This document shows, one piece after another, positions 1-4,185 of a stretch of DNA of 45,966 bases; position 1 is the stretch's first letter, and every line of letters starts with the position of its first letter. The DNA lies in NCBI GenBank assembly GCA_002841785.1, contig PHAW01000005.1, forward strand, positions 1 to 45,966, in the 5' to 3' direction. The notes under the pieces were generated by a model, which made no database searches, was not told the origin of the DNA, and saw nothing but the letters and a program-made list of their open reading frames with translations. The DNA is from Deltaproteobacteria bacterium HGW-Deltaproteobacteria-3. Lineage in GTDB: Bacteria > Desulfobacterota > Desulfobulbia > Desulfobulbales > Desulfurivibrionaceae. The translations under genes were made by a program, and so were the position numbers.

Positions 1-75
1 GGCGGCGTAGCCAAGTGGTAAGGCAGTGGTCTGCAAAACCATTATTCAGCGGTTCAAATCCGCTCGCCGCCTCCA
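1..75 (+). tRNA. tRNA-Cys (anticodon GCA)
   Basis: A complete cloverleaf can be drawn. The acceptor stem is GGCGGCG (1-7) paired with CGCCGCC (65-71), followed by discriminator T72 and an encoded CCA at 73-75. The anticodon loop CTGCAAA gives anticodon GCA, which reads UGC/UGU cysteine codons. The T arm is AGCGG, loop TTCAAAT, CCGCT (48-64). The gene begins at the first base of the window, so other tRNA genes could lie just upstream. A strong terminator follows at once, so this is the end of its transcript. Confidence 0.97.
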
Positions 76-87
76 GTAAAAATCAGA

Positions 88-121
88 AAGGGTCAGCCGT
101 ATTCGGCTGACCCTTTTTTTT
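88..121 (+). terminator. Rho-independent terminator after tRNA-Cys
   Basis: A 12-bp perfect stem, AAGGGTCAGCCG (88-99) against CGGCTGACCCTT (104-115), has a 4-nt loop and runs into a T tract. It ends the tRNA transcript and isolates it from the peptide locus downstream. Confidence 0.93.
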
Positions 122-407
122 GTGAATATTCCCCTCATCATCCATGCCAAAAAGGCGATCACTTTTCACCCTAACCCGCCGTCTTGAAAGAATAAACTCC
201 TTGTGTTGCTCCTTATTGTCAGGATATAACGATCTCAGAATAAACAAATCTCCTGATTGGGGCGTGGCAACAGCACCGCTCTCCCTCAGCTTGCCGTTAC
301 CTGCTCAATGTGGGCAGGACCAAATATAAGATGGAACACTGCTGCCTAAGGAAGATACAGGGACACAGAAAAAAATGAGGACTGAACCCGGTGGAAGCAG
401 AGTCGAC
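122..407. other. Non-coding leader region of the peptide locus
   Basis: About 290 bases without a convincing gene. A 61-codon open frame at 144-329 has no ribosome binding site and a low-complexity composition, and I reject it. The stretch is AT-richer than the genes further right and presumably holds the promoter of the peptide/radical SAM locus. I could not identify a confident -35/-10 pair. Confidence 0.4.
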
Positions 408-422
408 ACAGGAGGCATATTT

Positions 423-584
423 ATGCAATGGAATCCAACTGGTAGAAAACCCCTAACCTTAGTGCTTATCCTATTGGTAGGCTTTGCCGTAATGACTGAG
501 CCCGCAATGGCGTGTGAAGGAGAAGAGCAAGAGGCGGCTCTGGAGTTAATCTATCGTTCTCTTATGACTGGATATATGCGATGA
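423..584 (+). CDS. Short exported peptide (signal peptide plus small acidic segment), possibly the 5' half of a frameshifted gene
   Basis: This encodes 53 residues. The start at 423 is chosen because AGGAGG lies just upstream (about 410-415). Residues 8-30 form a typical signal peptide: Arg-Lys, then a Leu/Val-rich core, then an AMA cleavage site before Cys31. The mature part would be only about 23 residues, acidic and helical. The stop overlaps the next start as ATGA (581-584). The next frame continues a plausible helical segment (GRPWEALTRLNELS), so the two may be one secreted protein of about 117 residues split by a single-base frameshift. The alternative is two translationally coupled peptides. 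No known family is recognised. The radical SAM gene about 540 bases downstream suggests a link to peptide modification, by inference only. Confidence 0.55.
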   Translation: MQWNPTGRKPLTLVLILLVGFAVMTEPAMACEGEEQEAALELIYRSLMTGYMR

Positions 585-778
585 TAAGTGGAAGGCCTTG
601 GGAGGCGCTTACCAGGTTGAACGAGCTTTCACAAGAGCAGCAGAACATGTCCGAATCCTGTCAGATATTTATTCAGGATGTTGTTGGTGCCTTGTCTGGA
701 ATATTTTCACCAAAAAACTCCACACCTAGCTGTTATGGCGTAACGTGCTGCGACGGTTCCGGCTGTTATATCAATTAA
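581..778 (+). CDS. Cys-rich small peptide with C-x4-CC-x4-C tail
   Basis: This encodes 65 residues. It starts inside the stop of the preceding peptide (ATGA overlap) and has no clear ribosome binding site of its own. That fits translational coupling, or being the 3' half of a frameshifted exported protein. It has a helical middle (WEALTRLNELSQEQQ) and Cys27. The C-terminal tail has Cys51, Cys56, Cys57 and Cys62 in the pattern C-x4-CC-x4-C, with Gly and Ser between. The tail resembles the C terminus of the 890-1123 peptide (C-x6-CC), which suggests a related peptide or second substrate of the radical SAM enzyme. The family is unknown. Confidence 0.5.
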   Translation: MISGRPWEALTRLNELSQEQQNMSESCQIFIQDVVGALSGIFSPKNSTPSCYGVTCCDGSGCYIN

Positions 779-889
779 CCGCCTAACCCCAAGCCAGCAA
801 ATCGCTTTTATTTTTTATTTGGTTACACATGGCTAATCAACACGTTAGCGGAAAACAATGTGCAAAACAACTAAAGGAGGTGCCAGTCA

Positions 890-1123
890 ATGAAAAGAAA
901 CAGGAGCAAAGAGCTAAGAGAAATTGCCGGTGCTTTAATGAATCGTCCTGAGCTTCTTGACGCAGTAAACGCTGAGATTCAAAAGATGTTTGAGGTGTTG
1001 GGGTTTGCACTCACACCCGAAGAAAAAGCTTTTGTCCTAAAATTTTTGCTAGAAGAACAGAAAAAAGCAAAAAATTTCCAGTTTTGTGCTGGTGATGGTG
1101 CAAGATGCTGCAGTCAACGGTAA
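890..1123 (+). CDS. Candidate RiPP precursor peptide (77 aa, Cys-rich C terminus)
   Basis: A very strong ribosome binding site (AAAGGAGGTG) precedes the ATG. Residues 1-62 are charged and predicted helical (LREIAGALMNRPELL, ALTPEEKAFVLKFLLEE), as expected for a leader peptide. The last 12 residues (CAGDGARCCSQR) carry the only cysteines, C66, C73 and C74, with small residues between them, as expected for a core. The stop overlaps the start of the radical SAM/SPASM gene as TAATG at 1121-1125, so the two are translationally coupled. A short leader-plus-core peptide coupled to a SPASM protein is the classic layout of a radical-SAM RiPP such as a sactipeptide or ranthipeptide. The exact class is not recognisable, and no export or protease gene lies next to it. 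Confidence 0.72.
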   Translation: MKRNRSKELREIAGALMNRPELLDAVNAEIQKMFEVLGFALTPEEKAFVLKFLLEEQKKAKNFQFCAGDGARCCSQR

Positions 1124-2226
1124 TGGAGCAGGAAAAAATAATCGGACATTTCCCTGTCTCGCTGCGGTGGTTTGCTACGAATGATTGCAATCTGAATTGT
1201 AGTCATTGCTTTTTTCGGAATGGAAATCTACACTCGTCATCAACCATGTCGGGCCAGAAATTTCTCGACATGGTTGATCACACTCAATCTGTCAGGAAAA
1301 TTAGTGCCATACAGATTTTGGGTGGAGAGCCATTTATCAGGGAAGACCTCATGCAAATCCTTCGGGGACTTAGCAAGAGGAAAATCCAGGTTAGCATTAT
1401 TACCAATGGCACTATTATTCCTAATGAATTCTACAACTGCATTGACAAATTATCTGTTTCTGAATTGGTGTTCAGCATAGATGGCTCATGCGAAACGACA
1501 TATTCCAAGATTCGCGGCAGCAATCACTTTAACGATGTAATATCAAATCTTTTAAGATATAGAGAGGTTAAACCAAAAAAATCAAATTTAAAAGTAAACT
1601 ATGTGCTGACTAAAATTAATTCTTCTTCCCCAGAGGAGATAGTAGCTTTTTTTAATAATATGTCCATCGATGTTCTTTCCTTCAATTTTTTTGAGGAAAG
1701 AGGGAATGGCGCCATTAACAAAAAAACATTACGTATTTCAGATAAGGAGAAACTTGACTTCGTTGAATCAGTCTATAAGTACAGACCAAAGGGAAAGACC
1801 AAGATCCAGTTCCCCTTACATCCATTAGTACTGAAGTATCTAAGCCTAAAGTACAAATTTTCGGCTCCCATGGAATTCAGAGGTTGTACGGCAATTGTGA
1901 AGGAAATATTGATACTCGCCGATGGACGGATAAGCCCATGTGCGTCATTTATCAACAAAAAATGGGTTCAAAAAGCGCTTGGTTTCTCCCTGCTTTCCGT
2001 CCATGACAAAAGGCTTCCAGGCATTCTTATGTCGCCTGAGTACGATCTCTTTATAAAAAACAGGTTTCCAAAATCTTACAAAAATTACTACCCGTGCCAG
2101 TCATGTGAGTATCTCGGAAACTGGTGTAATCCATGTTTTTTTGAATCCTATTGCGGGCGCCCTTTTGTTGCCGACTTGTGCAAAGAAGTTCTCAGGCGAA
2201 TGCCTTCTTTGATCAGAAAATCGTGA
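1123..2226 (+). CDS. Radical SAM/SPASM peptide maturase
   Basis: This encodes 367 residues from ATG 1123; an in-frame ATG at 1105 inside the precursor gene is the alternative. The radical SAM motif CNLNCSHC (C-x3-C-x2-C, residues 22-29) binds the SAM-cleaving [4Fe-4S] cluster, and GGEP follows at about residue 73. The C-terminal quarter carries a SPASM pattern: C-x12-G-x4-C near residues 251-269, then CQSC, C-x2-C and a final Cys near residue 345, for auxiliary Fe-S clusters. Such enzymes install thioether or C-C crosslinks in ribosomal peptides. The 1-nt overlap with the 77-residue peptide makes that its likely substrate. The gene is clearly AT-richer than the rest of the window, a sign of horizontal acquisition. 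The chemistry and product are unknown. Confidence 0.88.
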   Translation: MEQEKIIGHFPVSLRWFATNDCNLNCSHCFFRNGNLHSSSTMSGQKFLDMVDHTQSVRKISAIQILGGEPFIREDLMQILRGLSKRKIQVSIITNGTIIPNEFYNCIDKLSVSELVFSIDGSCETTYSKIRGSNHFNDVISNLLRYREVKPKKSNLKVNYVLTKINSSSPEEIVAFFNNMSIDVLSFNFFEERGNGAINKKTLRISDKEKLDFVESVYKYRPKGKTKIQFPLHPLVLKYLSLKYKFSAPMEFRGCTAIVKEILILADGRISPCASFINKKWVQKALGFSLLSVHDKRLPGILMSPEYDLFIKNRFPKSYKNYYPCQSCEYLGNWCNPCFFESYCGRPFVADLCKEVLRRMPSLIRKS

Positions 2227-2319
2227 ATGGAAACCGGAAAAGAGGAACGGAGCCCGATTTCTTGCGAGTGGATTGAGAAAAAAATTGCCTGTAATCGCCG
2301 CATGCCATGGAGGTGTTTT

Positions 2320-2482
2320 ATGACCATGATCGAGATCAAAGACGTCCTTCTCTGGTGCGCAGGGCTCAACTACGCAGTTCTACTCCTCTGGTCCGGGGCA
2401 TTATGCGGGTCTTGCTGCGTACAAAATTGGCATAATCCTGCTCAACCTTGTGCCATGGCTTGCGCTCTGTTTAATTTCTTGA
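2320..2482 (+). pseudogene. Internally deleted DUF6868-type small membrane protein gene
   Basis: ATG 2320 has a good ribosome binding site (GGAGGTG) and encodes MTMIEIKDVLLWCAGLNYAV plus LLLW, the first helix of DUF6868-like small membrane proteins. From about 2399 a different frame encodes HYAGLAAYKIGIILLNLVPW and LALCLIS before a TGA at 2480-2482, which matches the C-terminal helix of the same family. The middle section (roughly 30 residues in my recollection of the family) is missing and the two halves are out of frame. The gene therefore appears broken by an internal deletion. The family assignment is by pattern from memory. Confidence 0.68.
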
Positions 2483-2524
2483 CGCGGGAAATGGCGACGG
2501 CGCCCGGCCAACCAACGATAGAAC

Positions 2525-2947
2525 TTACTCGCAGTTGCCCACCACGCAGGAATATTCCCCGCCCTCCAAGACAAGACGCGCCGTGCCGCCCTTGTCCCAG
2601 ATCATGATGTTTTCCCCTTCATATCGGGCACCGGAAGCGGAAAGAGCCTGCGCCAAGCGGTACCTTTTGCCCTGCGCCAGAATGGAAGCACCACCGCCGG
2701 GGTAGTACTCGACCATGATTTTTCCGAGCCCGGCACAGTCATAGCAGGCCGTGACCGTCTCCTCCGGGCGACACGGTTCTTCCCATGCCCGGATGCATTT
2801 TTGCTTTGCCTCGCACCAGGTATACCCCGCCGAACCGATACAGCCATGGGCATCCCTGTCGCTACCGAGAAGCCCTGCCGTGCTTCCGGCGCAGCCACCC
2901 AACACGAGGACAACGAAAAACAAGAGGGGCAAAATCCGTAGTTCCAT
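2525..2947 (-). CDS. Lipoprotein with MliC-like (C-type lysozyme inhibitor) domain
   Basis: This encodes 140 residues. The ATG at 2947 is preferred over an upstream GTG because AAAGG sits eight bases before it. It has a lipoprotein signal peptide with lipobox LGGC. A Cys-rich segment (HGCIGSAGYTWC, then KCIRAWEEPC) resembles the small peptidase-inhibitor-like motif often found in proteobacterial envelope proteins. The C-terminal half (ACYDC to the closing YSCVVGNC) contains SASGARYEGENIMIWDKGG, the conserved core of MliC/PliC periplasmic inhibitors of C-type lysozyme. The likely role is an outer-membrane-anchored inhibitor protecting peptidoglycan. It is transcribed towards the DUF6868 remnant and is probably monocistronic. 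Confidence 0.78.
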   Translation of the reverse strand: MELRILPLLFFVVLVLGGCAGSTAGLLGSDRDAHGCIGSAGYTWCEAKQKCIRAWEEPCRPEETVTACYDCAGLGKIMVEYYPGGGASILAQGKRYRLAQALSASGARYEGENIMIWDKGGTARLVLEGGEYSCVVGNCE

Positions 2948-3081
2948 CACAAACACCTTTGCCGGAAAGTTATGGTTAACTGACTGATTTCATGAGACAA
3001 GAGGCAAGTCCGGGCAAAAACGAGAAGACATGCTCCCATCATTACACGCACCCACCTAAGCTCACGCGCACCCTGCGCTCC

Positions 3082-3957
3082 TCATCCTCCCTCCTCACCA
3101 TTCTTTCCCTCGGCAGCAGGGGCCTCGGGCTTGAGGCTGCCAAAGGCCAAGGCATACTGCCGGGTGAACTCCGCGCCCAGAAAAAAAATCTGCGCCGAAT
3201 AGTAGACCCACAGCAGCAAGGCGATCAACGATCCGGCCGCGCCGAAGCTGGAAGCCACTCCGGTCTTGCTCAGATACAGGCCGACCGCGTACTTGCCGAG
3301 GCCGAACAAAACCGCCGTGACCACCGCGCCGACACAAACATCGCGCCAGGAGGGGGGCGCTTCCGGCAGCATCTTGTAGATCACCGCGAACAGCGAGGCG
3401 GTGATGCCGAAGGAGAAGATCGAGGCCAAGAGGGAGAAAACCGGGGCGGACCTGCTCCAGATCCCCCCCACGAAATTGGCAAGCACGGCAAGCGCCGCAC
3501 CGCCGACAAGGGAGACAAGCAGCAAAAAGGTGAGGACCATCACCAAGCCGAAGGCGAGCAATCTGGAGCGCAGGAGAACCACAAAAACGGGATGCCGCGC
3601 CGGCGGCACACCCCATATTTCATCCAGGCTCTCTTTGAGTTCGGCAAAGACGCTGGTGGCGACGACCAGCAGAATGACACTGGCCGCAATGCTTGCAAGC
3701 CGGCCGGAAACTGGATCCCGGGCCGCGGACAAAAACGCCTGGATCGCCCGGGTACCATTGGGTCCGACCGTTTTCGGAAGCTGGGCGATGATTTCTCCCT
3801 GGGCCGCTTCGGCGCCGAAGAAATACCCGGCCACGGCGATGGCCAGCATCAGGATGGGGGCCATGGAGAACAGGGCGTAAAAGGCCAGAGCCGCGCCCTT
3901 GCTGGCGCCGCGGTGGTCGATCCAGGCCTGTAATGATGCGAGCAGAACTTTTTTCAT
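3082..3957 (-). CDS. YihY/BrkB family inner-membrane protein
   Basis: This encodes 291 residues from ATG 3957 with GGGAGG upstream; a GTG 21 bases earlier is less likely. It has about six hydrophobic segments. The family signature near the N terminus (GASKGAALAFYALFSMAPIL) and the C-terminal GVASSFGAAGSLIALLLWVYYSAQIFFLGAEFTRQYA region identify YihY/virulence factor BrkB. The molecular function of this family is unsettled: it was once mistaken for RNase BN and is now usually described as a putative transporter. The tail is short and charged (EGKNGEEGG). It diverges from the DUF6178 gene across a roughly 230-base gap. Confidence 0.92.
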   Translation of the reverse strand: MKKVLLASLQAWIDHRGASKGAALAFYALFSMAPILMLAIAVAGYFFGAEAAQGEIIAQLPKTVGPNGTRAIQAFLSAARDPVSGRLASIAASVILLVVATSVFAELKESLDEIWGVPPARHPVFVVLLRSRLLAFGLVMVLTFLLLVSLVGGAALAVLANFVGGIWSRSAPVFSLLASIFSFGITASLFAVIYKMLPEAPPSWRDVCVGAVVTAVLFGLGKYAVGLYLSKTGVASSFGAAGSLIALLLWVYYSAQIFFLGAEFTRQYALAFGSLKPEAPAAEGKNGEEGG

Positions 3958-4185
3958 GCGCCTCCCGGTGGTGACCACTCTAAAATAACCGGGGAAAAAT
4001 GCATTGATTTTCCCTGGTCCGTGCTTAGTTTTAACGCGGCTGACAGAGTATCCGGCACAGTGGCCTCAAAAATAAAAATGCCCGGCCGACCTTCTTGCAG
4101 TATGGTACAGATGTTCAATTCCGGCTTTGCGACACACTTCCCCGGACGGCAATCCCTTTCACAGACCCTCAACGGACACATACAC

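Follow-up and report, generated by a model that had tools for sequence, protein, structure and literature searches.

The closest described systems are radical SAM enzymes that modify short precursor peptides. In the streptide (KW-cyclase) system SuiA-SuiB, a radical SAM and SPASM peptide cyclase adjoins a short precursor, and Lys and Trp are joined around GDG (KGDGW) in the streptide-type core (PMC5491770). In ranthipeptides (radical non-alpha thioether peptides; PapB, CteB), Cys lies near Asp, and PapB accepts Cys-Xn-Asp with n=0-6 (PMC9413430). Sactipeptides (SkfB, AlbA) have a Cys-bearing core. An RRE is present in a large share of radical-SAM RiPP enzymes; the leader bound by SuiB is a helix that sits in the active site and hardly touches the RRE, PqqE works with a separate RRE protein (PqqD), and several enzymes act without a leader (PMC8326336). 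A number of RiPP pathways depend on host proteases whose genes lie outside the cluster (PMC10885120).

The locus compared here with these systems is a gene pair near the start of the window (the whole 45,966-nt stretch of DNA analysed), in which a 77-residue peptide (the 77-mer) is coupled to a radical SAM/SPASM enzyme. The gene pair is real and very likely a radical-SAM RiPP cassette. It shares with SuiA-SuiB the adjoining of cyclase-like enzyme and short precursor, and GDG is common to the streptide-type core and the 77-mer core (CAGDGARCC), but SuiB and the window enzyme are about 20% identical in the fold alignment, and the Lys and Trp that flank GDG in streptide do not flank it in the 77-mer tail FCAGDGARCCSQR. 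As in ranthipeptides, Cys is near Asp in the 77-mer (CAGD), but the window enzyme has no fused RRE and scores 59.5 bits with the PapB model (cutoff 340 bits); a second cassette, from sister genome G009, resembles the ranthipeptide type, although its enzyme (213 bits) is also below that cutoff. The sactipeptide maturase SkfB is the top fold match, and a Cys-bearing core is common to both systems, yet the sactipeptide maturase models give 57.8 bits (StsB, cutoff 625) and 49.6 bits (GggB, cutoff 650). The top NCBIfam model, among the 25 listed of 87 that match, is the tungsten cofactor oxidoreductase maturase TIGR04317, yet the window locus has no oxidoreductase. Many radical-SAM RiPP enzymes carry a fused RRE, which makes its absence here notable.

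Location and content of the slot

The window opens contig C280 of a 2.85-Mb assembly (G000; 388 contigs, 85% complete). The features are as follows.

1..75, + strand: tRNA-Cys (GCA), by ARAGORN and Rfam; left border of the variable slot and the contig's first bases
87..116: near-palindromic stem-loop followed by a T-run, terminator-like; 13-pair stem, 3' of the tRNA
120..223: left flank common to sister genomes G009, G010, G015 and G016; cassette-specific DNA from about 223 onward
423..584, + strand: ORF1, 53 aa, signal-peptide-like (LTLVLILLVGFAV...AMA/C), with a good Shine-Dalgarno site; frame differs from that of ORF2
581..778, + strand: ORF2, 65 aa, tail SCYGVTCCDGSGCYIN; ATGA overlap with ORF1
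890..1123, + strand: 77-aa putative precursor, predicted helical leader and disordered tail NFQFCAGDGARCCSQR; Cys 66, 73 and 74
1123..2226, + strand: radical SAM/SPASM enzyme, 367 aa, by Pfam and cysteine motifs; no N-terminal RRE domain
2246..2500, + strand: DUF6868 gene in the right flank common with G009 (95% over 2246-2402)
2525..2956, - strand: MliC-type lysozyme-inhibitor lipoprotein (Pfam PF09864); resident neighbour, also in G009 and G017
3082..3978, - strand: YihY/BrkB membrane protein (Pfam PF03631); resident gene that anchors the slot on its right in most of the genus

As judged by sequence comparison, the ~2-kb AT-rich block is the cargo of a slot between tRNA-Cys and MliC/YihY whose content varies across the genus. 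DNA matching placed 1-223 in G009 and part of 1-223 in G010, G015 and G016. Between tRNA-Cys and YihY, the slot holds a secreted esterase-like protein in G017, DUF5625 with a RelE/HTH pair in G022, a pyrimidine-dimer glycosylase in G010, and small unknown proteins in G015 and G023. GC is 46% in the window's first kilobase, falls to 39% in the next and is about 60% farther along. Acquisition of the block by the window genome, proposed in an earlier note from AT-richness, is supported by sequence comparison because none of the 16 other genomes in the genus has the 77-mer or the enzyme and the slot content is variable; the AT-richness fits. Both cassette flanks, which lie on the same contig, match G009 at about 95-96%, so the cassette truly sits in the slot of the window genome. 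An integrated element with a duplicated tRNA end was considered and is unsupported: the tRNA 3' end is not repeated within 1-3000, and there is no recognisable integrase. Nor did the interval from the tRNA to the MliC gene show a recognisable transporter or protease gene, as the earlier note had said; its further point, that this sets the locus apart from most clusters, is not diagnostic because a number of RiPP pathways use host proteases outside the cluster (PMC10885120).

On its right side, the slot of G009 (contig C4, L038:114-2026) holds a 456-aa radical SAM enzyme unrelated to the window enzyme. It scores 214 bits with the nif11-maturase model and 213 bits with the PapB model, both below the cutoffs, and matches CteB at 1.2e-34; no other copy was found in 194 order genomes at E<=1e-40. 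Upstream of it is a 145-aa ORF with the Cys tail RCYYAGCGTDDGWPTAK, ending APRCYYAGCGTDDGWPTAK, and the stretch read contains no transporter or protease. The enzyme genes of G009 and of the window both stop some 20 bases short of the shared right flank. The left side of the G009 slot is on a separate contig (C27), and we infer that the C4 and C27 ends belong to one slot. Since G009 has a peptide and radical SAM pair of its own, such cassettes recur at the slot. A 46-aa ORF (MKTEDFFKLMLVEEFGANGHNVEKYFKKFRRQFKNIPSVLRSLAGC) on the reverse strand of the left part (L039, C27), at most 150 bases from the contig start, is possibly another small peptide of the G009 cassette. Assemblies end in or at tRNA-Cys at window position 1, the end of G018:C107, the start of G020:C9 and the end of G021:C48; these breaks may arise because the populations sampled were mixed in what the slot contains.

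The 77-residue peptide and the coupled enzyme

The ORF at 890-1123 encodes MKRNRSKELREIAGALMNRPELLDAVNAEIQKMFEVLGFALTPEEKAFVLKFLLEEQKKAKNFQFCAGDGARCCSQR. This is the 77-residue peptide with CAGDGARCC near the C terminus that the earlier note described, and the TAATG coupling to a radical SAM/SPASM enzyme is likewise confirmed, with the stop of the 77-mer and the ATG of the enzyme overlapping by one base at 1123. A strong Shine-Dalgarno site (AAAGGAGGTG) ends seven bases 5' of the 77-mer ATG. A short ORF directly coupled to the enzyme gene is what is expected of a radical-SAM RiPP precursor. Of 3000 dinucleotide shuffles of the upstream DNA, 3.4% had an ORF of 60 aa or more whose end lay no further than 30 nt from the start of the enzyme gene; such an ORF came with a Shine-Dalgarno site in 2 shuffles (0.07%), and no shuffle gave one with three or more Cys among its final 15 residues, these criteria having been set after the sequence had been seen. 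Chance placement of the ORF is unlikely, with the post hoc nature of the criteria kept in mind. Codon-usage scoring of the short ORFs of the cassette was uninformative.

The single-sequence model of the 77-mer has helices at 4-18, 20-36 and 43-59 and is disordered from residue 60, with a mean pLDDT of 66.7. Three helices bear out the helical leader that had been proposed, at modest confidence, and the model is consistent with a leader and core layout. No Pfam or NCBIfam model, including the Nif11/NHLP-leader models, matched the 77-mer beyond a sub-threshold WHIM1 hit. Searches of 27 family genomes, 194 order genomes, plasmids and viral contigs, and a pattern scan of genome_contigs, gave no homologue of the 77-mer, and the weak matches among 395 phylum genomes lie inside frames of 264-925 aa. 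For the enzyme, no match reached E<=1e-22 among the 395 phylum genomes, and the matches in the sets searched (genome_contigs pattern scan; viral, plasmid, phage, and family, order, class and phylum sets) have the low identity of radical-SAM background, about 19-28%, with a background of 22-30% noted for the class. The genomes searched contain no second copy of either gene with which the precursor-enzyme pairing could be compared.

The enzyme belongs to the radical SAM/SPASM enzymes by its Pfam domains (Radical_SAM PF04055, E=3.5e-16; SPASM PF13186, E=2.4e-5), its CX3CX2C cluster motif (Cys 22/26/29) and its full SPASM set of eight Cys at 255-353, spaced C255-x12-G-x4-C273 and C325-x2-C328-x6-C335-x2-C338-x5-C344-x8-C353. 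An N-terminal winged-helix RRE is absent, with merely 21 residues before the first cluster Cys. The nearest solved sequence is the streptide maturase SuiB (E=5.9e-10); the alignment takes in SuiB only from residue 123 on, and the N-terminal region before it has no counterpart in the window enzyme. SkfB matches by sequence at E=6e-7 over the radical-SAM core only. The enzyme model, built with 17 distant homologues, has a pTM of 0.78, with pLDDT below 50 in the C-terminal 53 residues (315-367). Its nearest solved folds are two RiPP maturases, SkfB (2.6e-15) and SuiB (3.5e-15), followed by BlsE, CteB, anSME and viperin. As far as a predicted fold can show, this places the enzyme among peptide-modifying SPASM enzymes; the folds do not name the reaction. 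An inverted repeat of 16 nt (94% complementary, 14-nt loop) was noted at 1236-1281 within the enzyme gene.

None of the 25 NCBIfam models listed, out of the 87 matching the enzyme, reaches its cutoff. Named NCBIfam families were ruled out by these curated cutoffs, and the enzyme is, on these scores, outside the curated families tested. It is quite unlikely that the enzyme is not a peptide maturase at all, acting instead in metalloenzyme or cofactor maturation (TIGR04317-like) or on small molecules (viperin-like), with the 77-aa ORF incidental. TIGR04317 is the best-scoring model among those listed, and the prokaryotic viperin models reach 73-80 bits, but these scores are far under the cutoffs (94.4 bits over residues 19-331 against 380 for TIGR04317; 73.4 bits against 180 for NF038283). 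The enzyme also has the full SPASM cysteine set, RiPP maturases lead the fold matches with viperins lower, and the cassette has no recognisable oxidoreductase or cofactor gene. A viperin-type defence role as the primary reading was rejected on the same scores and fold ranking.

Upstream reading frames

A second Cys-rich exported peptide, reported in the earlier note just upstream of the 77-mer, did not survive inspection of the frames: the signal peptide is in ORF1 (423-584), and the C-x4-CC-x4-C tail (CYGVTCCDGSGC) is in ORF2 (581-778), in another frame. A single exported peptide made of ORF1 and ORF2 was rejected on these grounds, as it would need a frameshift, and a search for relatives of the joined ORFs gave none that were credible. 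ORF1 has no family match in Pfam or NCBIfam, and ORF2 lacks its own Shine-Dalgarno site. The two may be a pair of coupled genes, or their frames may differ through a true frameshift or an error in the sequence. ORF2 may be a second substrate, or else the 3' half of an exported peptide gene that has been broken and put out of frame. In the right flank, the DUF6868 membrane-protein gene (window 2299-2500) is intact in G009 and broken in the window by a deletion of about 80 bases; together with the frame break between ORF1 and ORF2, this suggests that parts of the region are decaying. In all three tails (77-mer, ORF2 and the 145-aa ORF of G009), a Cys comes shortly before Asp-Gly.

The main substrate could be ORF2, or an intact exported protein ancestral to ORF1/ORF2, with the 77-mer as a separate leader or chaperone-like partner or a regulator. 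The tail of ORF2 is richer in Cys than the 77-mer core, and the mostly helical 77-mer could be a recognition partner for an RRE-less enzyme, as PqqD is for PqqE (PMC8326336). We consider this arrangement unlikely: ORF2 lacks its own Shine-Dalgarno site and does not share the frame of the signal peptide, it is the 77-mer gene that is coupled to the enzyme, the 77-mer has a Cys/Asp tail of its own, and the 77-mer model has no strands, unlike a winged-helix RRE (PMC8326336).

The same signs of decay bear on whether the block is a remnant or an assembly artefact, that is, a decaying or mis-assembled fragment with no functional product. The assembly is fragmented and incomplete, the contig's first base is also that of the tRNA, ORF1 and ORF2 are out of frame, and DUF6868 carries its deletion. 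This explanation is nevertheless very improbable, as the flanks on both sides match G009 within one contig, the enzyme ORF is unbroken and has every cluster cysteine, and the precursor keeps its strong Shine-Dalgarno site and its coupling.

A candidate radical-SAM RiPP cassette

The reading preferred here, with a probability of roughly 0.7, takes the block for a minimal orphan radical-SAM RiPP cassette, in which an enzyme that has no fused RRE modifies the Cys/Asp tail of the 77-mer. Block 224-2246 would be a horizontally exchanged minimal RiPP cassette in the variable slot downstream of tRNA-Cys. The 77-mer would be the substrate, with residues from 1 to about 60 as helical leader and the last ~16 residues as core, and the translationally coupled enzyme would bind the leader with no RRE domain of its own. 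SAM would be cleaved reductively at the CX3CX2C cluster, a hydrogen would be abstracted from a core residue, and a cross-link would be closed with the auxiliary SPASM clusters. The cross-link would most likely be a thioether from Cys66, Cys73 or Cys74, or a C-C bond across the GDG turn; the tail offers both Cys-x2-Asp and GDG, so a thioether and a ring across the turn are both plausible. ORF2, with its similar Cys/Asp/Gly tail, may be a second substrate, and leader removal and export would probably fall to host proteins encoded elsewhere. The sequence itself establishes the ORFs, their coupling, the motifs, the predicted fold and the slot with its exchange, whereas the peptide's part as substrate, the type of bond, the maturation and the biological role are inferences.

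Counted against the RiPP reading are the lack of a peptide homologue in the sets searched, the NCBIfam scores below cutoff, the lack of an RRE, the poor C-terminal model of the enzyme and the signs of decay. A radical-SAM RiPP locus, as the earlier note called it, is still the best reading of the block, although its exported peptide was wrong and its missing transporter over-read.

A bolder version, which is doubtful but deserves mention, is that this is a new RiPP family in which an RRE-less enzyme reads a three-helix leader directly and makes a cross-link of unrecorded connectivity in CAGDGARCC. The cassette would then be one of a pool of unrelated peptide-plus-radical-SAM cassettes that replace each other from one sister species to the next at this tRNA-Cys slot, as would be expected under diversifying selection, for example at a bacteriocin locus.

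If the pair works, its radical-SAM peptide maturase would fit none of the curated families tested, and its compact two-gene layout, with a leader read without a fused RRE, would be handy for enzymology. The most interesting addition is that two sister species have unrelated peptide-plus-radical-SAM cassettes at one tRNA-Cys slot. With different cargo at this one tRNA-Cys and a second radical-SAM cassette among it, sequencing the slot in more strains would be a cheap enzyme search.
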